This document shows, piece after piece, positions 33,100 through 52,416 of a stretch of DNA of 56,341 nt. Below the pieces are notes generated by a model. The model did no database searches and was not told the DNA's origin. It was given only the letters and a program-made list of their open reading frames with translations. Source of the DNA: Pirellulales bacterium. Lineage in GTDB: Bacteria; Planctomycetota; Planctomycetia; Pirellulales; S012-138. Location: NCBI GenBank assembly GCA_028066245.1, contig JALCBR010000014.1, positions 1 to 56,341 of the forward strand, given 5' to 3'. The first letter of the stretch is position 1; the number at the start of each line of letters is the position of its first letter. Position numbers and translations under genes: made by a program.

Positions 33100-34435
33100 A
33101 TTGCTGGGGATCTCGACATGGAGATGGGATTTTGACGGCTGGATTGTGGCCGCAGGCATCCTATGCGCAGTTGCAGCGGCGCTCTTGGGAAATTTCCTCG
33201 TGCTGCGGCGGATGAGCATGTTGGGAGATGCCATCAGCCATGCGGTACTGCCTGGTCTGGCTGCGGCGTTTATCTACACGTCCAGCCGCAACAGCTTGCC
33301 GATGTTCCTGGGCGCGGCAGCCGTGGGCATTCTCACCGCGTTCTTTACAGAGTGGATTCGCGGAGTGGGCAAGGTGGACGAAGGCGCATCGATGGGAGTC
33401 GTTTTCACGTCGCTGTTCGCGTTGGGGTTGGTGATGATCGTCCAAGCCGCAGACCATGTTGACCTTGATCCCGATTGCGTGTTGTACGGCTCGCCGGAAT
33501 ACACGCCTATGAACACGGTTTTCCTTGCAGGGTGGGAGGTGCCCATCTCCGTCATCACGTTGGGGATTGTAGCGACGGTCAACGCGGCCTTTGTGATCTT
33601 CTTCTATAAAGAACTCAAGTTCAGTTCGTTTGACCCGTCACTGTCGACGACGACTGGCTTCAGCGCGACCTTGATGCACTACATGCTGGTGGTGTTGGTT
33701 GCCGTCACGGCGGTCGCCAGTTTCGAGTCGGTTGGCAATATCCTGGTTGTGGCCATGTTCGTCGTCCCGCCTGCGACGGCCTATTTGTTGACGGATCGTT
33801 TGGCGGTGATGATTCTCCTCAGCTTGGTGCTGGCTTGTGTTTCTGCTGTGCTGGGGCATCTCGGCGCAATCGCCGTTCCTCGTTGGTTCGGTTTTGCGAG
33901 CAGCTTGCCGACGGCGGGAATGATGGCTGTCTCTACCGGGTTGATTTTCTCCCTGACTGTCGCCTTCAGCCCTAAACAAGGTGTGTTGGTTAAGTTTGTC
34001 CGCCGGCGAATCTTGGCATGGTCCACGCTTGCGGATGACATTGTCGGCGTGCTCTATCGTCGCGAGGAACGCAGCAAGGATTCGCGGGCGACTCGCGAGA
34101 TCCTGCGCTCACTCCTCTTGGCGGACGCGTTTTCATTGCGGATGGTGCTACGGTGGCTGAGGTTCCGCGGTGAATTGATACGGCATGGAGAACGATACGA
34201 ACTGACGCAACAAGGGAGGGCACGCGCACAGGATCTTGTGCGATCGCACCGACTGTGGGAGCAATACCTGGTCTCACAAGCCGGGTTGGACGAAGACCGA
34301 ATTCACGACAAGGCCGAGAAATGGGAACACGTCACGGATCTTGAGTTGCGTCGCCGACTGCGGGATGAAACGAACGCGCCGCGCATCGACCCCCACGGAA
34401 CTCCAATCCCGGACGAGCGGGCGGAAGCGGAATAG
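33089..34435 (+). CDS. ABC-3 metal permease fused to a MntR-type domain (second)
   Basis: 448 residues. Residues ~1-300 form an ABC-3 permease (GNFLVLRRMSMLGDAISHAVLPGLAAAF motif, 8-9 helices). Residues ~310-448 carry a short DtxR-like module: ADDIVGVLYRR (Asp317 at the MntR D8 position), a winged helix around LADAFSLRMVLRWLRFRGELIRHGERYELTQQGRA, and SHRLWEQYLVSQAGLDEDRIHDKAEKWEHV. By eye H387, E391, H406, E410, E413 and H414 align with the metal ligands of DtxR/MntR, with Glu at the DtxR Cys102 position as in Mn-specific MntR. It ends in DPHGTPIP, like the PHGNPIP of DtxR proteins. It pairs with the first permease to form the channel. Confidence 0.85.
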   Translation: MELELLGISTWRWDFDGWIVAAGILCAVAAALLGNFLVLRRMSMLGDAISHAVLPGLAAAFIYTSSRNSLPMFLGAAAVGILTAFFTEWIRGVGKVDEGASMGVVFTSLFALGLVMIVQAADHVDLDPDCVLYGSPEYTPMNTVFLAGWEVPISVITLGIVATVNAAFVIFFYKELKFSSFDPSLSTTTGFSATLMHYMLVVLVAVTAVASFESVGNILVVAMFVVPPATAYLLTDRLAVMILLSLVLACVSAVLGHLGAIAVPRWFGFASSLPTAGMMAVSTGLIFSLTVAFSPKQGVLVKFVRRRILAWSTLADDIVGVLYRREERSKDSRATREILRSLLLADAFSLRMVLRWLRFRGELIRHGERYELTQQGRARAQDLVRSHRLWEQYLVSQAGLDEDRIHDKAEKWEHVTDLELRRRLRDETNAPRIDPHGTPIPDERAEAE

Positions 34436-34583
34436 CCAGAGTTGTTGGCAGAAACGCTGACGTCACCACCGCGGAGTGTCAGAGCAAACAGAAAAAATTT
34501 CAGGCAACAATTGAAAGCACTCACCGCGACGATCAAGATAACACACTTGGTTGAGGAATGTGCACGTTGTGCATCACCGCTGG
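34325..34583 (+). repeat. diverged direct repeat, copy 1 (intact permease end plus broken barrel-gene start)
   Basis: 34325-34480 (end of the second permease and ~45 bp past its stop) matches 37375-37525. 34499-34583 matches 37739-37824, the region around the start of the outer-membrane barrel gene. In this copy the permease end is intact, but the barrel-like start runs only ~85 bp and then diverges. About 190 bp present in copy 2 are missing between the two blocks. Confidence 0.8.
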
Positions 34584-34663
34584 TGTGATACGGACGACTC
34601 CACCACGGAACTTCAGTCATGATGGACCGTCTACGTCATCCCCTATGCGAACTTGAGGAAAAG

Positions 34664-37300
34664 ATGAGCAACATGTGTGTAAGAGTTCCGAGTGCGCGTG
34701 TTCTTGTGACGCTAATACTGCTGGCCCTTTTCGGCGTCTTCGCTTCACCGGTTCGATCTCAGGATACAGCAACCATCGATGAAGACTGGACCGATGCTTT
34801 TCAGTGGCGATCAATCGGTCCGACAACCGCCGGCGGGCGAATTGTTCGGATTGCCGTTGTCGAAAGCGACCCGAATACATTTTACGTGGCCTCGGCCGGA
34901 GGCGGGCTATGGAAGACGACCAACAACGGGATCACGTTTGAAGGTCTCTTTCAACATGAAAGCACCATCTCCATCGGCGATGTCGTAGTCTCTCCGTCCA
35001 ACCCCGACATCGTTTGGGTGGGTACCGGCGAACACAACCCGCGCAACAGTGTCTCTTGGGGTGACGGGGTCTACAAATCAACCGACGGTGGCAAGACTTG
35101 GAAAAATATGGGGCTGAAAGATTCGTTTCAGATTGGTCGCATGGCCATTCATCCCACCAACCCCGACATTGTTTACGTGGGTGCGCTCGGTCGACTGTGG
35201 GGCCCTAATCGGCAGCGAGGTGTCTTCAAGACCACCGATGGTGGTGAGACCTGGAGGAAGGTGCTGTTTGTCAGTGAAAATACGGGGATCATCGAACTGC
35301 AAATGAACCCGGACGATCCCGATACGCTCTTGGCAGCCGCCTACCAGCGCCGTCGCGACGGGTTCGATGGTGGAGAACCGGCCATTAGTAGCGGACCTGA
35401 AAGCGGCGTTTATAAAACGACCGACGGTGGAAAGAAATGGACTCGATTGTCCAAAGGTCTACCCGAAGGAGACATGGGCCGCACGGGAATCGACTATTAC
35501 CAATCCGATCCGGACATTGTGTATCTGCAAACCGGAGGTTCGCGCGTCCGCGATGGCAGCAACGGTGTGTATCGATCCGAAGACGGGGGCGATAGTTGGA
35601 AAAAGGTCAACGACCTTTCCATACGGCCCATGTATTACAGCCAGATCCGCGTCGATCCTAGCGACGATCAGCGCGTCTACACCATGGCCACTTCCTCGCA
35701 TCGATCGACTGACGGTGGCAAGACGTTCTCCTCTGGGTTTGCCGGTCGTCCGCGCACGCACGAAGATTCCCATGAACTATGGATCGATCCACGTGACGGT
35801 GCTCATATGATCTTGGGTAACGACGGAGGATTGTTTCAAACCTATGATTACGGACGGAACTGGGACTTCATTGGCAACCTCCCCATTGCTCAGTCCTATC
35901 ATGTGGGACTGAGTCCTCAGAGGCGTTACTGGGCCTACACGGGATTGCAGGACAACGGGAATTGGGGAGCTCCCAACCTGATGCGCGGCACTCGTGGTCC
36001 GGGCAATGATGACTGGGTTCGCGTCAGCGGCGCCGACGGGTTTGTTTGCCTCGTCGATCCCAACGATGCCAATACGCTGTACTACGAAACGCAAAACTCC
36101 AACATGCGGCGGATGGATCTTCGCACGGGACGAAGCTCACGCATCCGCCCTCAAGCTGAGAATCAGCGTTGGAATTGGGAGGGACCGCTGTGTATCTCTC
36201 CCCATGATTCGAAAGTTCTTTTCACTGTTGGCAAAAACGTGTTCCGCTTAAGCGATCGTGGCGACGATGCGGACGAGATTTCTGACGACCTCTCGAGCGC
36301 CGAACGCGGTAGTGGGTCGGCGGTCGCGCAATCTCCGATCAATGCAAACGTCATTTACGCTGGCTATACTGACGGAGCCCTGTGGGTCACCCGCGACGGA
36401 GGCAAAGAGTGGAAACGCATTGACACAAACGTTGGCTTACCCGGCCAGCGATGGGTCGATTCGATCGAAGCCAGTCGCTATGAAGAGGGACGAGTTTATG
36501 TCGCCTTTGACGGACACCGGTCTAATGATGACGCGCCTTATGCGTTTGTCAGTGAAGATTACGGAGCCACGTGGCGCAGCATGAATGATGGTCTGCCTGA
36601 AAACGGATCGACGCGGGCGTTACGTGAGGACATCACGAATCCGAATCTGCTTTACTGCGGAACGGAATTCGCGATGTTTGCTTCGATTGATCGGGGACGT
36701 TCCTGGACCAAGATCAACAACAACTTGCCGACAGTAGCGATTCACGAGGTAGCCCTTCACGGCAAGTCCGGTGAAATCGTAGTCGCGTCCCATGGACGTG
36801 GACTATGGGTGCTGGACGTCACGCCGCTTCGTCAGATGACTACCAGAGTGCATCGGAGATCGGCTCATCTTTTCCAGCCGCAACCGGCCATCCTTTGGCA
36901 GCGCGGCGGATTGCCAACCGGCGATCTTTACGGAGGACGACGGTGGTACGGTGAAAACCCGTACCGTGGCGCGGTGATTTACTACTTTCTCCGCCAGTCC
37001 GTGGGCAGTCTTGTTTTGACGATCACCGACGATGAGGGGAATGTCATTCGCACGATGACCGGTGATGCGTTGGGTAAAGACGCGCGCTCGCCTGGCCTGC
37101 ACCGCATTGAGTGGAATACTCGCCGAGACCCCGCCCGGCGGACCACCAACGAGCGGCGTTCCTCACGAGGCGGCCAACAAGGCAATCGTGGCGGATCGGG
37201 TTCTCAAGTTAGTACCGGGACCTATCGGCTGACCTTGACCATTAACGGAGAGCAGCTGACGCAATCGGTTCAGCTGCAATCCGATCCTGGTGACGGTTGA
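34664..37300 (+). CDS. secreted Vps10/sortilin-like Asp-box protein
   Basis: 878 residues from ATG 34664, with GAGGAAAAG just upstream; two alternative starts, 34619 and 34673, exist. Signal peptide VLVTLILLALFGVFASPVRSQ. Residues ~35-700 form beta-propeller blades with at least nine Asp-boxes of type S/T-x-D-x-G-x-T-W (KSTDGGKTWK, KTTDGGETWR, RSEDGGDSWK, SEDYGATWRS and others), as in sortilin/Vps10 and BNR-repeat proteins. The last ~150 residues include a FlgD-like beta part (GSLVLTITDDEGNVIRTMTGDA) common in secreted proteins of this group. It is an extracellular binding or processing scaffold without recognised catalysis. Its codons appear normal. It separates the transporter operon from the barrel gene. 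Confidence 0.8.
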   Translation: MSNMCVRVPSARVLVTLILLALFGVFASPVRSQDTATIDEDWTDAFQWRSIGPTTAGGRIVRIAVVESDPNTFYVASAGGGLWKTTNNGITFEGLFQHESTISIGDVVVSPSNPDIVWVGTGEHNPRNSVSWGDGVYKSTDGGKTWKNMGLKDSFQIGRMAIHPTNPDIVYVGALGRLWGPNRQRGVFKTTDGGETWRKVLFVSENTGIIELQMNPDDPDTLLAAAYQRRRDGFDGGEPAISSGPESGVYKTTDGGKKWTRLSKGLPEGDMGRTGIDYYQSDPDIVYLQTGGSRVRDGSNGVYRSEDGGDSWKKVNDLSIRPMYYSQIRVDPSDDQRVYTMATSSHRSTDGGKTFSSGFAGRPRTHEDSHELWIDPRDGAHMILGNDGGLFQTYDYGRNWDFIGNLPIAQSYHVGLSPQRRYWAYTGLQDNGNWGAPNLMRGTRGPGNDDWVRVSGADGFVCLVDPNDANTLYYETQNSNMRRMDLRTGRSSRIRPQAENQRWNWEGPLCISPHDSKVLFTVGKNVFRLSDRGDDADEISDDLSSAERGSGSAVAQSPINANVIYAGYTDGALWVTRDGGKEWKRIDTNVGLPGQRWVDSIEASRYEEGRVYVAFDGHRSNDDAPYAFVSEDYGATWRSMNDGLPENGSTRALREDITNPNLLYCGTEFAMFASIDRGRSWTKINNNLPTVAIHEVALHGKSGEIVVASHGRGLWVLDVTPLRQMTTRVHRRSAHLFQPQPAILWQRGGLPTGDLYGGRRWYGENPYRGAVIYYFLRQSVGSLVLTITDDEGNVIRTMTGDALGKDARSPGLHRIEWNTRRDPARRTTNERRSSRGGQQGNRGGSGSQVSTGTYRLTLTINGEQLTQSVQLQSDPGDG

Positions 37301-39313: not shown

Positions 39314-40225
39314 TCAATACGTCAACAGGAGGCGGTCTGTAACGATCTCCTTCTCCAACGTGCGTCCATTCATTTGGAAGCGCCGCAGCATCGAACGCCC
39401 GCAGTTGACGAGCGCTTCGCGTTGGAAAAGCCCTGGGGGAATCTGCACGTCGCAAAGCACATCGCCAGACTTCTTACTACCGTCAATACTGAGCGCGACA
39501 AAGGCACCACGCCGCTTGCAGTCCGCGATTGCCTCAAACAGGCGTTGCAAACTGAAAGCTTGTGCGCCGTAGAGGATGCTTTGAGAGTGGCGATAGGGAG
39601 GATCGCAATAGATGAGGTCTTCGCGACCGGCTCGGCCCATCGCGGCCTGAAAATCGAGTACGTCAAACTGCGCTCCCATAGTCCGCTGACTCCAAGTCTC
39701 CACGCGTTGCGCAAAGCTCTCCGGTGCGATTGGCTGATGCGGACCGCATGGAGTCGACATGTGCCCGTCTTCTTTGCGAAATCTCATCACACCGCCGTAG
39801 CATGCCCTGCACAGGAAGAGAAGGTCCGCACCGTTGGGTCGCGCGTTGTAAGCGGCCTTCACTTGCTCGTAAGCGGTTGCTTTCCCATGTCGTCCGATCA
39901 TCGCCCAGCGTTCCTGGTACCAGCGCTTGAGTTTGCCAGGATCATTGCGAAGAGTTTGCCAGATCTCGATTAGCGGTGTAAACGCATCCGAGGCCAGCGC
40001 CCGCTGAGGAGCCAGCGTTCCCAAGACCGCGCCGCTGCCAAGAAACGGTTCGTGATACGTCTGAAAACCGCCGGGAAAGTGCGAGATGATTTCGTGAGCG
40101 AAGCGTTGCTTGTTGCCAATCCACTTCAGCAACTGGCTGCGAAACGGCCGAATGATTCCTCCCTGCGATTCTCGTTCAGGAGTCGCTGGCGGCGTATTAT
40201 GCGGGTTCCATCCCTCTTCATGCAT
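39314..40225 (-). CDS. D12-class DNA adenine-N6 methyltransferase, orphan
   Basis: 303 residues. Dam-like architecture: motif X QLLKWIGNKQRFA, motif I FLGSGA (61-66), target-recognition insert with CRACYGGVMRF, and catalytic motif IV DPPY (208-211). It methylates adenine in a short DNA site using S-adenosylmethionine. No restriction gene is beside it, so it may act in regulation or repair, or as a phage-derived guard. Start ATG 40225 lies 16 bp after the stop of the TPR gene on the same strand, so the two are probably co-transcribed. The gene ends close to the MITE-like element. Confidence 0.85.
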   Translation of the reverse strand: MHEEGWNPHNTPPATPERESQGGIIRPFRSQLLKWIGNKQRFAHEIISHFPGGFQTYHEPFLGSGAVLGTLAPQRALASDAFTPLIEIWQTLRNDPGKLKRWYQERWAMIGRHGKATAYEQVKAAYNARPNGADLLFLCRACYGGVMRFRKEDGHMSTPCGPHQPIAPESFAQRVETWSQRTMGAQFDVLDFQAAMGRAGREDLIYCDPPYRHSQSILYGAQAFSLQRLFEAIADCKRRGAFVALSIDGSKKSGDVLCDVQIPPGLFQREALVNCGRSMLRRFQMNGRTLEKEIVTDRLLLTY

Positions 40226-43807: not shown

Positions 43808-44146
43808 GAGTTTCTCCTTTGATTCCTCCGGCGTCCGCGCGGCACCAATCGATGACGGCAATTGCCGATGTCTGCTGATCGCCTGGCTGGGGAGCCGGCG
43901 CACAAACGTAGCATCGGTCCACAGGTTGACAGCAATCGAGAGAATCGAAACCAACCCTCCCTATCGGATTCGGCAGCACCATGACGACACGTCAGGCTGG
44001 GCCGGATCGACAAAATCCGTATAATCCCTACGATTCACAAAAGCAACCAATTGCGGTGAAAGTGCCCGAAATCGAGTAAGTTCGACATCGACTCGGATCT
44101 CACAACCTTTGTCTTGAATTGGTCAACCGAATCCACGCGCAACGAT

Positions 44147-46282
44147 ATGTCACGGTCGACAACTTCCCCCAAGAAAACCGCTAAAAGCTCTCGCCGCCCG
44201 AAAGGAACACGCACCGCCAAGCGAACTGTGGCTGAGGGCCAAAACGGGCGTGCTTCTAACGGAAAACAACCAACCGGGAATCGGCATGTGACAACAAACG
44301 GCAAGTCGCCGTCGGCATCAACCAATGGCAAGCGGCGCCGGGCGACGGCAGAGAGTATGGCCGCCGGTCAGCGCGACATCTCCGTCAGCGAATTCTTCGC
44401 CAAGAATCGCCACCTGCTTGGCTTTGACAATCCACGCAAGGCCTTGCTGACAACCGTCAAAGAGGCCGTCGATAATTCGCTCGACGCTTGTGAAGAAGCG
44501 GGGTTGCTGCCGGAAATCTGGGTGCACATTACGGCGCTGGGAAACAATCGCTTCACCGTTGGCGTGCAGGACAATGGGCCTGGCATTCTTCAGAAGCAAA
44601 TTCCGCTGATCTTTGGCAAATTGCTCTATGGTTCCAAGTTTCATCGGTTGCGAATGAGTCGTGGCCAACAAGGAATCGGGATTTCCGCCGCCGGCATGTA
44701 TGGCGTCCTCACCACAGGCAAGCCTGTACGAATTCTTTCTAAGACATCCAAACGCAAGCCGGCGTATTATTACGAAATCCAGATGGACACCAAGAAGAAC
44801 AAGCCGGAGATTCTCAACGGCCACGGCAAAGGAGTTGAGATCCCCAGCGGTGAAAAACTGGTGGACTACCTTGCCAAGCATGGCGTTGAGTGGGAGCCGG
44901 TGGATCATGGCACGCGGGTGACCATCGAATTGGAAGCTCGCTATCAGCGCGGCCGTGGGAGTGTTGATGAGTATCTCCAGCAGACGGCGATCGCGAATCC
45001 CCACGTCACACTGCATTATGTTGATGCCGATGGCAACGCCGTTGACTATCAACGATCGACCGAGGCGTTGCCGGATGAGCCGCACGAGATCAAGCCACAC
45101 CCCTATGGCGTCGAGCTGGGCATCCTGGCAGCCATGCTCAAGGATTCCAAAGGCGAGACTCTCTCGGGATTCTTGACGCAGAGGTTTTCTCGCGTCAGTG
45201 GCGCAGTTGCCAGGAAGATTTGCGAAGCGGCAAAACTCAGCACACGTGCCCGCGCAACGCGCATCGGTCGTCACGAAGTAGACGGACTCTACAAGGCTAT
45301 CCAGCAAACCAAGATTACATCGCCCAGCACGGATTGCTTGAGCCCGATTGGCGAAGAATTACTGCTCTCAGGGTTGCGGCACGTCGTTCCCGGAGAGTTC
45401 TACGCAGCAGCCACGCGTCCTCCGGCCGTTTATCGTGGAAATCCATTTCAAATTGAAGTTGCTCTCGCATTTGGCGGCGCCTCAGCGGCTGAGAAAGTCA
45501 CGCTGGAATCCCTCAAGGAAATGCTGGCTGAGACGGACAGTCGGACCATTCGCCAATTTTTGATCAACGGGTTCTCCGGAATCGGCGCGGACGGTGCCGA
45601 GAAAATCATCAAGGCTTCAAAACTCGGCACCCGCAAGACTCCCGGAAAACTCAAACCGAAGGAAGTGCTGGCCTTGCATGAGGCCATGAAGAACGTCAAC
45701 CTTGATGATGGGCAATCAATGAACGTGCTGCGGTACGCCAACCGCGTTCCGTTGCAGTTCCAGCAGGGTGCCTGCGCTATCACCCAGGCGGTGATGGGCA
45801 CCAATTGGCGTGGCTATGGTCTTAGCCAATCTCGTGGTCAACTTCCCTCCGGGCCGGTCACCGTCATGGTTCACATGGCTAGCGTTTGGGTGCCGTTCAC
45901 AAGCGAAAGTAAGGAGGCGGTTGCCGGATACCCGGAAATTCAGAAAGAGCTACGGCTCGCGCTCCAGTCCGCGGGAAGAAAGTTGGGGATGTACCTGCGT
46001 CGCCGCCAACACGTCAAGCAAGCCGGCGACCGGCGAACCGCGTTTCTCCGCTATTTGGGTGAAGTTGCCCGGGCAGTGCACAAGATTAACGATACTAACA
46101 CAGAGTCGCTCTACGACCGGCTTGTCGCGGTTGCCAAAAAGAAAACAAACGAAGCCGACATTCGCATGAATGATCGCGGGCAACGGGTTTCCGAAGATGA
46201 TTTTGGCGGTGGCGTGTACATCGCAGAGACCGCGAGCCCACCGCTGGTTTCCGAGGAAGCATCCAATGATGCATCGGAATGA
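44147..46282 (+). CDS. top6B: DNA topoisomerase VI subunit B (Top6B), without Top6A in view
   Basis: 711 residues from ATG 44147. Top6 relaxes and decatenates DNA as an A2B2 enzyme; subunit B is the ATPase and transducer. Seen: a Lys/Arg/Ser-rich N-terminal extension of ~80 residues; GHKL/Bergerat ATP site with KEAVDNSLDACEEAG, VQDNGPGI and GQQGIGISAAGMYGVLTTG; an H2TH-like part; and a transducer with the ATP-lid loop MGTNWRGYGLSQSRGQLPSGP. Length exceeds typical archaeal Top6B (~530) mainly through the basic tail and loops. The next gene downstream is a TauE/SafE permease, and no Top6A (Spo11-like, with DRD metal motif) is in the window. Rare in bacteria. Confidence 0.9.
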   Translation: MSRSTTSPKKTAKSSRRPKGTRTAKRTVAEGQNGRASNGKQPTGNRHVTTNGKSPSASTNGKRRRATAESMAAGQRDISVSEFFAKNRHLLGFDNPRKALLTTVKEAVDNSLDACEEAGLLPEIWVHITALGNNRFTVGVQDNGPGILQKQIPLIFGKLLYGSKFHRLRMSRGQQGIGISAAGMYGVLTTGKPVRILSKTSKRKPAYYYEIQMDTKKNKPEILNGHGKGVEIPSGEKLVDYLAKHGVEWEPVDHGTRVTIELEARYQRGRGSVDEYLQQTAIANPHVTLHYVDADGNAVDYQRSTEALPDEPHEIKPHPYGVELGILAAMLKDSKGETLSGFLTQRFSRVSGAVARKICEAAKLSTRARATRIGRHEVDGLYKAIQQTKITSPSTDCLSPIGEELLLSGLRHVVPGEFYAAATRPPAVYRGNPFQIEVALAFGGASAAEKVTLESLKEMLAETDSRTIRQFLINGFSGIGADGAEKIIKASKLGTRKTPGKLKPKEVLALHEAMKNVNLDDGQSMNVLRYANRVPLQFQQGACAITQAVMGTNWRGYGLSQSRGQLPSGPVTVMVHMASVWVPFTSESKEAVAGYPEIQKELRLALQSAGRKLGMYLRRRQHVKQAGDRRTAFLRYLGEVARAVHKINDTNTESLYDRLVAVAKKKTNEADIRMNDRGQRVSEDDFGGGVYIAETASPPLVSEEASNDASE

Positions 46283-46538: not shown

Positions 46539-47378
46539 GTGCTGTGGATTATCGTCGGGGCAGTTCTAATTGGAGTGATGGTGGGCCTGCTCGGTTCGGG
46601 CGGGTCAATTCTCACTGTGCCGGTTCTGGTCTACCTGCTCGGACACGAAGAGAAGATTGCGATCTCTGAGTCACTGGCCATTGTGGGCGGCGTGGCATCA
46701 GCAGCCGCGATTCGCTATGCGATTGCTAGAAGTATTGAATGGCGTAGCGTCGTGGTTTTCGGCCTGCCGGCGATGATGGGAACTTATATCGGCGCATGGC
46801 TAGCGCAGTTTGTCTCTGGCACGTTCCAGATGATTTTGTTTGCCGGCGTGATGCTGGTCGCCGCAAGATTCATGTTTGGCCGCAGGCACCAGCCTGCTGC
46901 ACCGTCTGAGGGAGAGGTTCCTCTCGCGTCAGAGAGTGAAGAACCAGGGCATGCCATGTGGAAGATTGTCCTGGAGGGACTGGCGGTTGGCATCTTGACG
47001 GGACTCGTGGGTGTCGGCGGCGGGTTTCTGATCGTCCCGACGCTTGTTCTGCTGGGCAAATTACCAATGCGTCAGGCGATTGGTACGAGCTTGGTGATTG
47101 TTGCGCTCAAATCTGGCACCGGGCTGATCAAGTATTTGGCAATACTTGAAGAACAGGGCGCGGCGATGAATTGGGCGACTGTCGGCTGGTTTTGCCTGTT
47201 TGGTATCGTGGGGAGCTTGGTGGGAAGCTGCGCCGCACGCAGGGTCAACCAACGAATTCTCAGGCGAGTTTTCGCGGCCTTCCTCGTCGTGATGGGAATC
47301 TTCGTGGCTACGATGCAAGTCATCGAACTTCTCGGCGAAAGAGACACGCCGGAAACGCCACGGACGGCGAGCCCATGA
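46539..47378 (+). CDS. TauE/SafE-family sulfite/anion permease
   Basis: 279 residues from GTG 46539, with AGGAAGG upstream. Two halves of four membrane helices each. Each half has the family motif: GLLGSGGSILTVPVLVYLL (first) and GLVGVGGGFLIVPTLVLLG (second). A cytoplasmic loop of ~25 residues (HQPAAPSEGEVPLASESE) lies between them. It exports or imports sulfite, sulfonate or similar anions. It is alone on the plus strand between top6B and the convergent prenyl synthase gene. Confidence 0.9.
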   Translation: MLWIIVGAVLIGVMVGLLGSGGSILTVPVLVYLLGHEEKIAISESLAIVGGVASAAAIRYAIARSIEWRSVVVFGLPAMMGTYIGAWLAQFVSGTFQMILFAGVMLVAARFMFGRRHQPAAPSEGEVPLASESEEPGHAMWKIVLEGLAVGILTGLVGVGGGFLIVPTLVLLGKLPMRQAIGTSLVIVALKSGTGLIKYLAILEEQGAAMNWATVGWFCLFGIVGSLVGSCAARRVNQRILRRVFAAFLVVMGIFVATMQVIELLGERDTPETPRTASP

Positions 47379-47407: not shown

Positions 47408-49291
47408 TCAAGCCGGCGGCTCAGTGCTGCTCGCCGGTGGTTCGCCGGCAGTTTGAAGTTCCAGCGAAGGCACAAATACCGCCGGGGCGGCAGCAGCCAC
47501 GTCGCTCCGATCTAAGACCGTATCGACGAGGTAATACAACAGCCTGCGGAGTTCGTCAGGCTCAGCTTCGTCCGCAACCTTTTCAGCTCGATCTTGGTAC
47601 TTGTCGACGAGTGATTCGGCCTGCTCGAACACGCCAGCCTTCTCATACAAGACCTTCACGCGTGCGACTGCATCTGGAGTTGGGTTGGCAACCAATCGCT
47701 CTAACTCCGCTTGGTCCTCTTCGTTCAATCCCTCCAAAGCCAAAGCCCACAGCACCGTTGGGCGTCCGCCCAAGATGTCTCCTGCGGCGGAGAGCTTGTT
47801 GTCGTTGTCTCCTCGCCAGTCCTTGAGGTCATTGAGAATCTGGAAGGCGACTCCCAAATGCCGAGAGAACAGCGTCAGCTTCTCGCTTAGATCGCCCATT
47901 TCGCCGGCCAACCGAGCCCCAGTAAACAACGCAGCCTCGAATGCGGGCGCCGTCTTGAGTGCGTAGATCTTCAACGCATCCAACGGTGAAAGCTTCTTCT
48001 GCAAGGAGTCTCGCCAAAGTAACTCCGCTCCCTGGCCTTCCGAGAGTTTCAAGTGTGCGTCGGCCAGTTTGTCCAACAGGTCCGCAGCCACCGCCGGCGT
48101 GAGCGCCGCAGAGTCACGGCTGATCAATCGGTACCCCAGCCCAATCAAATAGTCGCCCACATTGATGGCAGTGGGGATGCCGTACTTGCGGTGCAGCGTC
48201 TCCTGCCCGTAGCGATACTCGTCATCATCCTCAATGTCATCATGCACGAGTGACGCTTTGTGGAACGTCTCGATGCTCATGGCTGCGCGCTTGACCGCGT
48301 CTGGTAACGCGGCAACGTGCTCTTCACCGCCACTGGCTGTCCCGTTGCCTCCGGTTAGGGCATCATGCACGGCCAGCGTGATGAACGGACGAGAATGCTT
48401 TCCTCCCTTGGAAAGGAAGTCATACGCCAGGGCTTCGGTGGCCGCGATCGGGTCGACATTGGCCAATCCCCGCCCGTTCCGTTCATGCAGATTGATCTCA
48501 CTGCGCGAGCGCGGCGCGAGATTGTTCAACTCTTGCGGCTCAAACATGTTGGCCGCGGCACGCATTAACGGCAGGTAGCTGCGCGTTTGCGTCTGCTGCG
48601 GACGATGTTCGTTGTTGATCATGTCCATGACCCAGTCATCGTCCACGCCAGTGTTGCGGCAGTCACTGGAGAGCAGAGGAATTGCCATGCAGGGGATTCC
48701 CGCCAGCAAGATCTTATCAATCGCTTTTTCCAGCACGTTCAGACAAGCGACACCCGTGATCGCGTCGACATGGCCACTGACGATGATCTTCAAGACGATG
48801 GGGGAACCTTCAGCGACCAGGACTTTGTAGCCCAGGTCTTCCGCGCGGGTGCGGAAGTCGGCAATTGTGCAGGCGCCGCACTTGCGGCAATCCAGACCGA
48901 ATTCGTCATAGTCAGCCGGACAGCCTTCGGCATGTTTCAGACAGTGCGGCAGGAGGAACAAACGGCGATCATACGGCACCGCGGCGACCTGTTCTCGCCA
49001 GAACGCGGTGGCCAACGTGACCATTGACCAGCCAAGAAATCCTTCCGCAAGTCCCGCGTCACTGAGCATTCGCCTGGCGACCTCTTCCATCTCGTCCTTG
49101 GTCAAGGGGCGAGATTTGTCGAGTCTGGCGGCCACGTCCTCGCAACGGGCGCGCAACGCGACTCGTTCTGATTTCGTCTCCGGAACCAGCTTCAAATGAC
49201 TGGTGCTGCGACGCTTGCGCCGGCGCGGAGATTCCCCGGTTTCCGGTGACGGGGTGGAAAGGGATGAATGACCTGGGAGTATGGATGCCAA
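47408..49291 (-). CDS. DUF116-isoprenyl diphosphate synthase fusion
   Basis: 627 residues from TTG 49291. Residues ~75-225 are a DUF116-like domain with a cluster of Cys (HCLKHAEGC, GLDCRKCGACTIADFRTRAEDLGYKVLVAEGSP) and Cys later at 183, 201 and 211. Residues ~285-600 are a trans-isoprenyl diphosphate synthase with GGKHSRP, first Asp motif DDIED (351-355), and a second motif NDLKD (487-491), where the usual first Asp is Asn. It should elongate isoprenoids to C15-C30 products. The gene lies 9 bp downstream of the cyclase-like gene on the same strand, so the two are co-transcribed. The Cys domain may bind an iron-sulfur or zinc centre. Confidence 0.85.
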   Translation of the reverse strand: MASILPGHSSLSTPSPETGESPRRRKRRSTSHLKLVPETKSERVALRARCEDVAARLDKSRPLTKDEMEEVARRMLSDAGLAEGFLGWSMVTLATAFWREQVAAVPYDRRLFLLPHCLKHAEGCPADYDEFGLDCRKCGACTIADFRTRAEDLGYKVLVAEGSPIVLKIIVSGHVDAITGVACLNVLEKAIDKILLAGIPCMAIPLLSSDCRNTGVDDDWVMDMINNEHRPQQTQTRSYLPLMRAAANMFEPQELNNLAPRSRSEINLHERNGRGLANVDPIAATEALAYDFLSKGGKHSRPFITLAVHDALTGGNGTASGGEEHVAALPDAVKRAAMSIETFHKASLVHDDIEDDDEYRYGQETLHRKYGIPTAINVGDYLIGLGYRLISRDSAALTPAVAADLLDKLADAHLKLSEGQGAELLWRDSLQKKLSPLDALKIYALKTAPAFEAALFTGARLAGEMGDLSEKLTLFSRHLGVAFQILNDLKDWRGDNDNKLSAAGDILGGRPTVLWALALEGLNEEDQAELERLVANPTPDAVARVKVLYEKAGVFEQAESLVDKYQDRAEKVADEAEPDELRRLLYYLVDTVLDRSDVAAAAPAVFVPSLELQTAGEPPASSTEPPA

Positions 49292-49300
49292 GGTGAATCC

Positions 49301-51229
49301 TCAAGAGGTCGTGACCGCTACAGGCGAACGCGCGGCCGATTGTTCGGTGGGAAACGCGCTCCTGGACCGGGAAGCGGTCTGAAGCGCGGCGGTGGTGAAG
49401 ATCAGGGGGTACAATTCCTCGTAGTACCACAGTTTGGCGAAATAAAAGCCGATCGGCGAGGGTTTTCGATGACAATTTTCGCGAATCGCGGTAACCAACC
49501 AGTCTAATCCACGGTGCCAGGCGGTTTTTTCGGCCTTACTCAACCCAAGTTTCGCCACATCGGACTCGGCGGATTCGAGATTGAATCCCGAGAGCGCTTC
49601 GACTGCCAGTGCTGTTTCTTCGACTGATGACTGCTGGCCGTCTCCCCCCCAGCCGCCGTCCGTGTTTTGCACTTTTCTGAGCCAAGCTCGCCCCTGCACG
49701 GCCTCAGAGCGATCGCCAAGCCCAAGCTGAGCGAAGGCAAGTAATACCTTCGCTGTCCCATAGACGGGATTTTCTTCCGCTGGGTGATGTTGATTACCAA
49801 ACCACAACGGCATCCAAGACCCGTCAGTCCGTTGACTGGTGGCCAGAAAATGCAGTCCTCGGCGAGTCGCTCGGTCAATGCCAGACGAAAGTCCAGAACT
49901 CTGGTCCAAGATGGGCTTCCAAGCATGCATCGCCCTGATGGAGTGTGCAGTCAGATCCGTAGAGCTACGATCAAACGGCATCGTCCCCCATCCGCGGCAG
50001 AACGTTGGCCATCCTCCATCACGATTTTGAATCTTGATCAGCCAATCGATGCCATGTCTGGCCGCATCGATCAGCCGCTGCTTGTCACGAGAGGCAAATT
50101 GCTGTCCGTTACGAGCCCGCGAAAACCAACGTGCCAGCGCCAGCAGGGCGCCGGATGTATCGTCAACGTCCGGAACTCCGCCGGAGAGATCAGTCCATGC
50201 CCAGCCGCCGGGCGCTGCTCCCGTGTAAGGATGAATTACGCGGTGCTGGCAATCGAGTAGCCACTCAAGCAAACGTGGCTGCATGATCTCGTCATGCGCG
50301 TGGGGTTGGCCTTCGTCTGGTCGTTCGACCTCCGTATCTTCCAGGAGCGCGTTGAGTGCTAATGTTGTGTTCCACGTGGCCAGGTTCGTATCGATTGGCC
50401 AGGATCCATCATCGCGCATGGAAGCCAACAGAAATTCCTCGCCTTGAAGGGCAACAGCGTGATTCGCCTGACCAATGGAAGCCAAGCTCATTGTGACAAA
50501 CGCCGTAAGCGGCGTTGCTTCCAGGAAACCGCCGCTCTCCGGTTGCATTTGTTTCAACACGCGGAGACTTCTTCCGGCTGCCGCTGCGCGGAGGCCCCGC
50601 GTCAATGGGTTTCTCGGTTTGTCATGAAAATACTTGGCCTGACCAATAGCGACTAATGCCGGGATGGCGTAGCTAACCACAGGCAAACGCATGAAGCGGA
50701 AGAAACCTTGCGGCAAAACGGCCAACTCAAACGGCAAGGGTGAAACCTCTCGCCAATCAGTGATGCCTGCTAACGCACAATTCGTCAGAATTGGCACGGC
50801 AAACGTCTTGTCTTTGCCGTATCTGGCACGCAAAGCGGTGATGCCCCCTTGCCGAGAAATATAAGTTTCACATTTATTCAGCAGGCCGTGATAATCTTCC
50901 TCCGCGCCAGCCAACCGGACGGCCGCAGCGATCAACATACTGGTGGCGATGTTTGAGTGACTGAGATCCGTGTCGCCAAAACCACCATCCGCATTTTGTT
51001 GCTTTGCCATCCAGCTCAATCCCGCTTGGATGGCCTGACGCCGCTTCTGGCTGTTCTCTCCCTTAGCGTTCGATTTCTCTTCGAGAATTGCCAAAGCGCT
51101 TACCGCCGTGGCCGTGGAGAGTGCTGAGCTGGCCAACCGGCCTTCCCAATATCCCTTGCATGACCGGGCGGCGAGGAGTTCCTGCCGGACCTTGAAGAGC
51201 GAGTCTCGTATCTGCTGTGCAGTGGGCAT
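49301..51229 (-). CDS. squalene-hopene-cyclase-like terpene cyclase
   Basis: 642 residues. Alpha/alpha-barrel repeats with QW-like motifs (QNADGGFGDTDLS, QPESGGFLEATP, RDDGSWPIDTN, QNRDGGWPTFC, QRTDGSWMPLWFG, QNTDGGWGGDG). The protonating motif DVDD (354-357, in PDVDDTSGALLAL) matches the DxDD of squalene-hopene cyclases. The sequence is too distant from true hopanoid cyclases for a firm substrate. It precedes the prenyl synthase fusion by 9 bp. Together they look like a terpenoid-making unit of unknown product. Confidence 0.85.
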   Translation of the reverse strand: MPTAQQIRDSLFKVRQELLAARSCKGYWEGRLASSALSTATAVSALAILEEKSNAKGENSQKRRQAIQAGLSWMAKQQNADGGFGDTDLSHSNIATSMLIAAAVRLAGAEEDYHGLLNKCETYISRQGGITALRARYGKDKTFAVPILTNCALAGITDWREVSPLPFELAVLPQGFFRFMRLPVVSYAIPALVAIGQAKYFHDKPRNPLTRGLRAAAAGRSLRVLKQMQPESGGFLEATPLTAFVTMSLASIGQANHAVALQGEEFLLASMRDDGSWPIDTNLATWNTTLALNALLEDTEVERPDEGQPHAHDEIMQPRLLEWLLDCQHRVIHPYTGAAPGGWAWTDLSGGVPDVDDTSGALLALARWFSRARNGQQFASRDKQRLIDAARHGIDWLIKIQNRDGGWPTFCRGWGTMPFDRSSTDLTAHSIRAMHAWKPILDQSSGLSSGIDRATRRGLHFLATSQRTDGSWMPLWFGNQHHPAEENPVYGTAKVLLAFAQLGLGDRSEAVQGRAWLRKVQNTDGGWGGDGQQSSVEETALAVEALSGFNLESAESDVAKLGLSKAEKTAWHRGLDWLVTAIRENCHRKPSPIGFYFAKLWYYEELYPLIFTTAALQTASRSRSAFPTEQSAARSPVAVTTS

Positions 51230-51595: not shown

Positions 51596-51856
51596 ATGCC
51601 GCATAATCCGTTGGACACCACTCCGGAAGCCTATGCCGTCCAGCAGGAGGTTCTCCGCAAGCTCGGTGGCAGTCGCCGCGCGGAGTTGGCATTAGAATGG
51701 TCAGCCAAAATACGAGAAACCGCCATGGCTGGAATTCGTAGCCGTAATCCGCATTATTCGTCTCGGCAGGTCGTCCTGGCTTATGCTCGGATGACGCTGG
51801 GCGAGAAGCTCTTTCGCGAGGCGTTTGCCGACGAGATTGCGTTGATTGACAAATGA
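51596..51856 (+). CDS. small protein paired with a nucleotidyltransferase
   Basis: 86 residues, ATG 51596. Helical, with Arg/Glu/Ala-rich composition (EVLRKLGGSRRAELALEWSAKIRETAMAGIRSR and RQVVLAYARMTLGEKLFREAF). It overlaps the next gene by 4 bp (ATGA), so expression is coupled. The pattern of a small helical protein with a nucleotidyltransferase recalls antitoxin/toxin or HEPN/MNT pairs, but it lacks the HEPN Rx4-6H motif and I cannot place it. Confidence 0.55.
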   Translation: MPHNPLDTTPEAYAVQQEVLRKLGGSRRAELALEWSAKIRETAMAGIRSRNPHYSSRQVVLAYARMTLGEKLFREAFADEIALIDK

Positions 51857-52416
51857 GCGAAGGAGATTTTTTTCGATATCTGATTGCGCAACTAGAGCGA
51901 CATCGGCTTGCGTATATGGTGTCTGGTTCCGTCGCCAGTAGTTTTCACGGAGAGCCGCGGACCAGCTTTGACATCGACATCGTTGTCGAGGGAACCGTTG
52001 ACCAGATTGCCGGTCTGTGTCGGGAGCTTGACGCGCGATGTTACGTATCGCCCAACGCTGCCCAAACGGCCGTTCGAGAGCATGGCATGTTCAACGTCAT
52101 TGACTCACAATCTGGCATCAAAGCAGATTTGATCTTGCGAAAAGATCGCCCATTCAGCGAGATGGAATTCCAACGCCGTCAGCAGGTCGAGATTTGCGGA
52201 GTTTCGGCCTTTCTGGTTTCCGCGGAGGACTCAATCTTGAGTAAACTGGAGTGGGCGAACTTCGGCGAATCGGACCGTCAGTATCGCGACGCACTGAACA
52301 TTGCCACCGGGGAGAGCAAAACTCAACTCGATTTGTCCTACCTGCGGCATTGGGCGGAACAGCTAAACGTTGCCGACGCACTTGCCCGGTTGATCAAAGA
52401 GTCAGGTCTACGCTGA
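51853..52416 (+). CDS. nucleotidyltransferase of the MNT/AbiEii type
   Basis: 187 residues. The nucleotidyltransferase core begins MVSGSVASSFHGEPRTSFDIDIVVEGT: the GS pair and DxD (FDIDIV) bind NTP and metal. DLILRKD provides the third acidic residue, and SAEDSILSKLEWA is the common later helix of AbiEii-like proteins. It could add a nucleotide to a tRNA or protein acceptor. It is translationally coupled to the 86-residue protein upstream. The downstream gene uppS starts 56 bp later in a different context. Confidence 0.75.
   Translation: MSEGDFFRYLIAQLERHRLAYMVSGSVASSFHGEPRTSFDIDIVVEGTVDQIAGLCRELDARCYVSPNAAQTAVREHGMFNVIDSQSGIKADLILRKDRPFSEMEFQRRQQVEICGVSAFLVSAEDSILSKLEWANFGESDRQYRDALNIATGESKTQLDLSYLRHWAEQLNVADALARLIKESGLR

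Follow-up and report, generated by a model that had tools for sequence, protein, structure and literature searches.

The window studied here is a contig (C7) of 56,341 nucleotides (56 kb), analysed in its entirety, from a Pirellulales genome of 4.94 Mb (186 contigs, 97.5% complete). It encodes the B subunit (Top6B) of a topoisomerase VI (Topo VI) whose transducer almost certainly contains a second H2TH domain. This domain derives from a Top6B H2TH; it was previously described only as an unexplained helical bundle, which very probably receives its identity here. Taken as a whole, and leaving aside any contact of the copy with DNA, the picture of a normal Topo VI encoded by split genes, having a second H2TH domain duplicated in the order and acting as a decatenase, is likely correct.

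How Topo VI detects DNA crossings and ties the transported segment to ATP use is a question still under study, and an H2TH domain copied to a new place in the same enzyme is a natural experiment on Topo VI. Moreover, Topo VI appears to do in this order what Topo IV does in most bacteria, and a branch of the order seems to have switched back; the exchange of decatenases can be studied within the order.

The Top6B Gene and Its Parts

The open frame on the + strand covers 44114-46282. An in-frame ATG at 44147 gives a Top6B of 711 aa, the start being ambiguous between this ATG and a TTG at 44114. The Top6B gene that the initial annotation had placed at 44147-46282 is real. Its product matches the Pfam families Topo-VIb_trans (1.3e-52, in two stretches) and HATPase_c (GHKL ATPase, 5.7e-10), and among PDB proteins its sequence is closest to the Top6B of Methanosarcina mazei (7.3e-138). 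The model of the full protein has a mean pLDDT of 82.9 and a pTM of 0.81, and in a Foldseek search of the PDB with this model the first 16 rows are Top6B chains. An Rfam scan of the whole window gave nothing above the gathering score. The parts of the gene are the following:

44147..46282, + strand: Top6B, topoisomerase VI subunit B (Pfam, PDB sequence matches, model, Foldseek)
44147..44341, + strand: Lys/Arg-rich N-terminal extension, predicted disordered, variable among relatives (model pLDDT, alignment, composition)
44342..45085, + strand: GHKL ATPase region (Pfam, M. mazei alignment, motifs)
45086..45340, + strand: canonical H2TH domain, aa 314-398 (alignment to M. mazei H2TH)
45341..45478, + strand: transducer, first part, within Topo-VIb_trans positions 1-57 (Pfam)
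45479..45721, + strand: transducer insert (aa 445-525), almost certainly a second H2TH domain copied from a Top6B H2TH (profiles, model, Foldseek)
45722..46150, + strand: transducer, second part (Pfam, motifs, model)

The GHKL motifs are the N-box EAVDNSLDA (aa 106), DNGPGI (aa 142), and RGQQGIGIS (aa 172). Residues E106, N110, D142, G144, G146, G176, and G178 are invariant in 60 Top6B sequences, and the N-box and glycine motifs of the GHKL/Bergerat fold are present. An RGRG cavity loop (aa 268) stands at the place of KGRR of M. mazei, and alignment with the latter protein locates the canonical H2TH domain between the ATPase and the transducer. The second part of the transducer carries N-W-R-x-Y (aa 553-557; M. 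mazei counterpart WKxY) and S-E-S-K-E-A-V, which contains Lys589; K589, W554, and Y557 are invariant in the 60 sequences. Lys589 is the transducer switch lysine. A role of the switch lysine is mentioned for Topo VI (PMC13040014, accessible part). Finally, aa 596-648 form a long helix corresponding to the stalk towards Top6A, intact in the model.

A Lys/Arg-rich extension had also been pointed out as a possible DNA-binding tail. The rich extension does exist, with 25% Lys+Arg in the first 63 residues vs. a median of 13% (range 5-42%) in 41 relatives. It is a variable tail, predicted to be disordered: residues 1-70 have a pLDDT of about 36-45 in the model, and conservation is poor, with a mean pairwise identity of 0.15. 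The conserved oddity of this Top6B sits outside the tail, elsewhere in the protein.

A Second H2TH Domain in the Transducer

The Pfam transducer match of the window Top6B is broken in two by aa 445-525, and about 70 extra residues sit in the transducer. Against Pfam, this insert gives NFACT_N (0.0018) and S13 (0.051), both H2TH-containing families and both below the curated cut-offs; the canonical H2TH domain of the same protein gives NFACT_N at 0.0012, likewise below the cut-off. A profile of the insert was built from 46 proteins of the window's order. When it is compared using hhalign with whole insert-free Top6B proteins of other planctomycetes, one significant place is found, the canonical H2TH domain (70 columns, E 9e-12); against the canonical H2TH of the order itself, the E-value is 1.6e-18. 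The corresponding HMM matches the canonical H2TH in 77 of 81 insert-free bacterial Top6B proteins with 12.7-47.4 bits, the best score on 835 shuffled sequences being 4.9 bits. The four others (G002, G034, G095, G038) have no match above 8.3 bits, not far from the shuffled maximum.

The AlphaFold model of the insert alone has a pLDDT of 86, and in the full Top6B model the block means over the insert are 90-98. Foldseek with the insert alone returns Top6B chains in the first 14 PDB rows, the best being the M. mazei H2TH (E 4.7e-5, TM 0.83, rmsd 0.9, 34% identity). Later rows, all with E above 0.1, are mainly Fpg/MutM, Nei, sIHF, and ribosomal small-subunit chains; we take the latter to be S13. 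VIA places the insert on residues 236-315 of 9o0g_B, that is on the H2TH domain, with a Z-score of 14.0 and an rmsd of 3.0 over 80 residues. Hence, the insert shows both profile homology and a fold match to solved H2TH domains. An origin from another H2TH protein, such as S13 or Fpg, is disfavoured because the H2TH of Top6B is the best match in sequence as well as in structure. Mean scores of the insert HMM on canonical H2TH domains are 37 bits in the order, 33 and 28 bits in other bacteria having a Top6A of type J or type S, respectively (see below), and 22 bits in four archaea; since the bit ranges overlap, these sequence scores do not tell which Top6B H2TH was copied.

In the Topo VI of Pirellula staleyi, a 2024 paper describes a “unique alpha-helical bundle” that juts out into the cavity at the centre (PMC11302465, accessible part). 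This published description matches the second H2TH domain, and the bundle is very probably the same element. We found no paper naming the P. staleyi bundle an H2TH domain in the open-licence PMC literature, exclusive of supplements.

Where the Second H2TH Domain Occurs

The insert is present in all 46 full-length Top6B proteins examined from the order (45 fetched plus that of the window). Its length is nearly constant, with one single-residue indel in 46 rows, and eight residues are invariant. This count omits 21 Top6B frames that are partial because the locus ended within them and that were the only row fetched for 13 genomes; 17 of these 21 span the site, all with the insert, thereby adding nine genomes. 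As for the remaining ones, G181 starts inside the insert, G143 and G191 start behind it, and G198, a contig-end fragment from another order of the same class, has no insert. In a 77-genome sample, the broken Pfam match is seen in 71 of 73 order genomes with Top6B, and in the two others (G125 and G147) Top6B runs into a contig end.

A wider collection contains 167 Top6B and 140 Top6A rows covering most of the protein, archaea included, with 114 pairs where both are available. In this set, 82 Top6B proteins carry the insert, 46 from the order and 36 from named records, some of which are perhaps from the same species as our genomes; the other 85, including the four archaeal ones, do not. One carrier, L190, lies outside the motif filter yet scores 110 bits with the insert HMM and was counted. 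Named carriers include Lacipirellula limnantheis and Aeoliella straminimaris, both Pirellulales, and a few titled Deltaproteobacteria or Acidobacteria are taken for misnamed MAGs.

A split Pfam match is by itself misleading as a sign of the H2TH copy, and the count was therefore restricted to sequences that had been aligned or that had been scored with the insert HMM. G076 and G110, from outside the class, have matches split by charged low-complexity loops. A haloarchaeal Top6B of 821 aa was also considered as a carrier and set aside, its extra piece lying, as judged by eye, inside the canonical H2TH domain and not in the transducer. Among planctomycetes outside the order, the loop is filled in L064, L065, L066, and L068-L072 by unrelated, mostly charged low-complexity inserts.

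The latter loops bear on the possibility that the insert is merely a tolerated spacer, the loop accepting inserts in planctomycetes and the H2TH copy being one of them. Indeed, in 12 of 45 non-order planctomycete Top6B proteins the same segment is lengthened to 37-75 aa including flanks, mostly by charged low-complexity sequence (in the remaining 33 it is 22-23 aa long), and conservation of the insert is below that of the remaining Top6B core: within the order, the mean pairwise identity is 0.53 for the copy, 0.60 for the canonical H2TH, 0.80 for the GHKL region, and 0.78 for the transducer behind the insert. Against this reading, the order shows one fold, a near-constant length, and eight invariant residues, and the identity of the insert is close to that of the canonical H2TH and far above the 0.15 of the disordered tail. 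We therefore regard a spacer as improbable. As judged from its distribution, the H2TH domain would have been duplicated at the base of Pirellulales, and the copy placed in the early transducer loop.

A Split Gene Pair

As the initial annotation had remarked, the window has no Top6A partner. The Top6A family search gives no match in the window and a sole match in the genome, on contig C8 (183,597 bases) at 34135-35343 (G000:C8:34135-35343); Top6B itself lies about 10 kb from the end of contig C7. The C8 protein aligns with Saccharolobus shibatae Top6A over residues 39-401 of 402 (5.7e-78) and matches the Pfam Toprim domain (5.5e-59). Its motifs IRGLYY, FILHVEKD, LLDNDPWG, and KLEVEAL align with the active-site stretches of M. 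mazei, and the catalytic Tyr and the Toprim acids are kept in this alignment (active-site residues as listed in the accessible part of PMC13040014).

The two subunits also co-occur. In a 119-genome sample of the phylum, Top6B is present in 52 genomes, and exactly these give a Top6A match above the cut-off; G078, without Top6B, has a weak Top6A match below it. Among 77 near relatives, Top6B is found in 73, Top6A in 71, and both in 70. Of the three with Top6B only, one (G125) has this match where its contig ends, and the other two, G148 and G151, have completeness values of 81 and 83%, respectively. Where both are present, 48 pairs are within 4 kb, three are on one contig at 51 to 714 kb, and 19 are on different contigs, some perhaps through assembly breaks. 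From these counts, adjacency is the rule in the order and the split occurs in several lineages, of which the window species is one; the split is secondary and the pair is otherwise normal. The gene top6A would have moved away from top6B in an organism with gyrase but without Topo IV.

Two readings had been put forward initially, a lone ATP-driven clamp and a pairing with a distant Top6A. The missing partner and the unrelated downstream neighbour, confirmed here as a TauE/SafE permease gene (46539-47378, +), speak for a Top6B that acts alone on DNA. Against it stand the full Top6A of this genome, the presence of Top6A in all 52 Top6B-bearing genomes of the phylum sample, and the long helix that joins Top6A in known structures, intact in the Top6B model. 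The clamp is accordingly rejected and we give it hardly any credence. The genome search for top6A that had been suggested supports pairing at a distance: top6A lies elsewhere in the genome, which is the positional half of what the initial annotation had set as its refutation, and the split of top6B is therefore ordinary. There is little doubt that the window Top6B is one half of a normal, split Topo VI.

Concerning mobile elements, no phage match was found for Topo VI. Five plasmid records match, all of haloarchaeal genera.

Two Types of Top6A with One Kind of Top6B

Bacterial Top6A proteins are of two types, nearer either S. shibatae (type S, 88 rows) or M. jannaschii (type J, 47 rows). Their Top6B partners are alike, with mean scores to M. 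mazei B of 475 bits (67 S pairs) and 474 bits (43 J pairs). The Top6B tree took 85 of 110 bacterial pairs (all 36 S pairs outside the order, 19 of 31 S pairs in the order, 30 of 43 J pairs). In this phylogeny, also proposed in the initial annotation, bacteria form one group vs. four archaea (SH-aLRT 83), within which the S and J partners branch as sisters of each other (SH-aLRT 86 and 90). In the Top6A tree, type S goes with S. shibatae, opposite a group made up of type J, M. jannaschii, M. mazei, and haloarchaea (99), and constraining the two bacterial types to one group yields a p-AU of 0.032, the groups tested being named from similarity to the same archaea as in the tree. Both trees have four or five archaeal rows and a flagged, very long S. 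shibatae branch, and the join of S with S. shibatae may be false because long branches meet there.

Planctomycete Top6A proteins fall into two widely divergent types that share a single kind of Top6B partner. Exchange of the Top6A subunit would be the simplest reading of the conflict between the two trees, archaeal sampling being thin. With more archaea, two bacterial Top6A clusters were reported, one near Methanococcales and one near some DPANN and Euryarchaeota, and at least two transfers were inferred for each Topo VI subunit (PMC11302465, accessible part). In two planctomycetes of our set, L076 (G054:C116) and L077 (G016:C70) are second Top6A matches apart from the Top6A/Top6B pair; in the match of G016, the reading frame is interrupted by a TAG.

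Type IIA Topoisomerases and Decatenation

The genome has one GyrA/ParC-family match and one GyrB/ParE-family match, and searches with these families give no sign of Topo IV. Therefore, Topo VI is probably the decatenase of the chromosome in this organism, a role to which we attach good confidence; we know of no measured activity of any Pirellulales Topo VI. Among 40 genomes chosen for comparison, a single GyrA/ParC match was found in each of the 16 Pirellulales that carry Top6B and two in each of the 13 f81 family members that lack it. The nine remaining class members devoid of Top6B each show two or three (the three of G199 include one gene that gives two pieces). Two order genomes, G120 and G156, have no Topo VI and a single GyrA/ParC, perhaps as incomplete assemblies. 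These counts overstate the evidence, since on the GyrA tree the two states in the order are explained by two changes. Across the wider phylum, the presence of Topo VI with absence of Topo IV is a tendency only: at least two GyrA/ParC matches were counted by hand, as matches and not as checked genes, in 6 of 52 Topo VI genomes vs. 34 of 67 without Topo VI. In the literature, Topo IV is noted to be absent from bacteria with Topo VI other than Pseudomonadota and Terrabacteria (PMC11302465, accessible part).

The f81 members without Topo VI (L285-L297) carry a second GyrA/ParC. In a tree of 30 rows, three of them from other classes and with the ParC of G171 and G087 excluded (extreme branches, probably wrong frame), this second GyrA/ParC forms one clade, the nearest sampled row of which is outside the class (12 usable order rows). 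This position suggests that Topo IV was regained in f81 and replaced Topo VI.

What the Second H2TH Domain May Do

The residues R466, R469, R496, G478, F471, F476, P499, and Q523 are invariant in all 46 copies, and the hairpin has become Gly-x-Gly (G478 in 46 of 46, G480 in 44 of 46). Gly-x-Gly is a form of nucleic-acid-binding hairpins. The copy has a mean net charge of -0.2, the canonical H2TH one of +3.6. In M. mazei, R263, K268, and K308 are the H2TH residues that touch the bent gate segment, and both strand passage and DNA sensing depend on a cavity loop, KGRR 186-189 (PMC5922973 and PMC13040014, accessible parts); mutants show that both elements matter (PMC5922973, accessible part). The counterparts of R263, K268, and K308 in the copy are not basic in the aligned rows, that of K268 being an invariant Gly. 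This loss of three DNA-contact positions argues against a simple repeat of the known H2TH-DNA contact, and the copy has probably been given a new task.

In the published P. staleyi model (PMC11302465), the corresponding position is in the cavity, where the copy would hang between the ATP gate and the DNA gate. Its R466, R469, and R496 and its Gly-x-Gly hairpin could touch the transported segment or the opposite B subunit, and such a contact would link capture of the transported segment to closure of the ATP gate. That the copy contacts the transported DNA segment has, in our view, an even chance of being true.

Alternatively, the copy may make a protein contact, with its twin across the dyad, with the transducer stalk or with Top6A, that times gate closure. 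The net charge near zero, the loss of the three DNA-contact positions, and the fact that individual residues (D464, R466, R469, Q523) are strongly conserved yet form no basic patch are in line with this possibility, as is the M. mazei cryo-EM work suggesting a coupling between competence for cleavage and inter-transducer status (PMC13040014, accessible part). The three arginines invariant in 46 of 46 copies and the hairpin, now Gly-x-Gly, point the other way, as do the Foldseek neighbours after Top6B, mainly nucleic-acid binders (Fpg/Nei, ribosomal small-subunit, sIHF). We hold a protein contact to be a tentative option, of somewhat less than even probability.

If the copy contacts DNA, one may imagine an order-wide rebuilt strand-passage chamber with four H2TH domains per holoenzyme, two outside that would bend the gate segment and two inside that would capture or check the transported segment. 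To this would be added a mosaic enzyme, with an A subunit of an archaeal type unlike that paired with the same B in sister lineages. This combined picture is speculative, and we would sooner doubt it than accept it.

Comparison with Known Systems

The window Top6B has the GHKL, H2TH, and transducer domains of a Topo VI B subunit, and a Top6A with the catalytic Tyr and Toprim acids is encoded in the genome. From these sequences, Top6B is predicted to be the ATPase subunit of an ordinary A2B2 Topo VI, for which assembly and strand passage are likewise predicted. The GHKL, H2TH, transducer order is common to the Topo VI of M. mazei (2Q2E, 9O0G) and S. shibatae (2ZBK), and the ATPase and Toprim/Tyr motifs on separate A and B chains are as in these enzymes. 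Both are devoid of a second H2TH domain, in contrast to the window Top6B. The window B is nearer M. mazei B and its A is nearer S. shibatae A. M. mazei B has a C-terminal Ig-like domain, which the bacterial Topo VI forms tested do not have (PMC11302465, accessible part). Models of Topo VI from P. staleyi and from the dinoflagellate Cladocopium goreaui are of Pirellulales Topo VI with the helical bundle, and that of C. goreaui is linked to gene transfer; in the accessible part of that source, the bundle is identified neither as H2TH nor as a duplication, and an order-wide survey is not included (PMC11302465).

Two related families were set aside. The meiotic Topo VIB-like proteins have no H2TH domain (PMC11302465, accessible part), and the window Top6B has two.

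Topoisomerase VIII has its A and B parts fused in one chain, and here the two subunits are encoded by distinct genes located on different contigs. It is found in free or integrated plasmids (PMC11302465, accessible part).

Within type II enzymes, a clade-specific extra piece in the ATPase subunit is also known as the GyrB insert of Corynebacteriales (6GAV), which is of other origin and is not known to be an H2TH copy. The Corynebacteriales GyrB belongs to a type IIA enzyme, unlike Topo VI.

Neighbouring Genes

Other genes of the window were noted in passing. Upstream of Top6B, a D12-class adenine DNA methyltransferase is encoded at 39314-40225 (-) (1.6e-25). Downstream, a 627-aa frame at 47408-49291 (-) joins DUF116 (5.8e-37) to a polyprenyl synthetase (1.9e-42) and is adjoined by a squalene-hopene cyclase-like gene at 49301-51229 (-). 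Two overlapping small genes of 86 and 187 aa at 51596-52416 (+) have no Pfam matches at 0.001; the longer one reads as nucleotidyltransferase-like and the pair is possibly toxin-antitoxin-like, which is an impression only. On contig C8, the gene downstream of Top6A, on the opposite strand (L003 2451-3047, -), encodes a NADAR-domain protein (7.1e-41).
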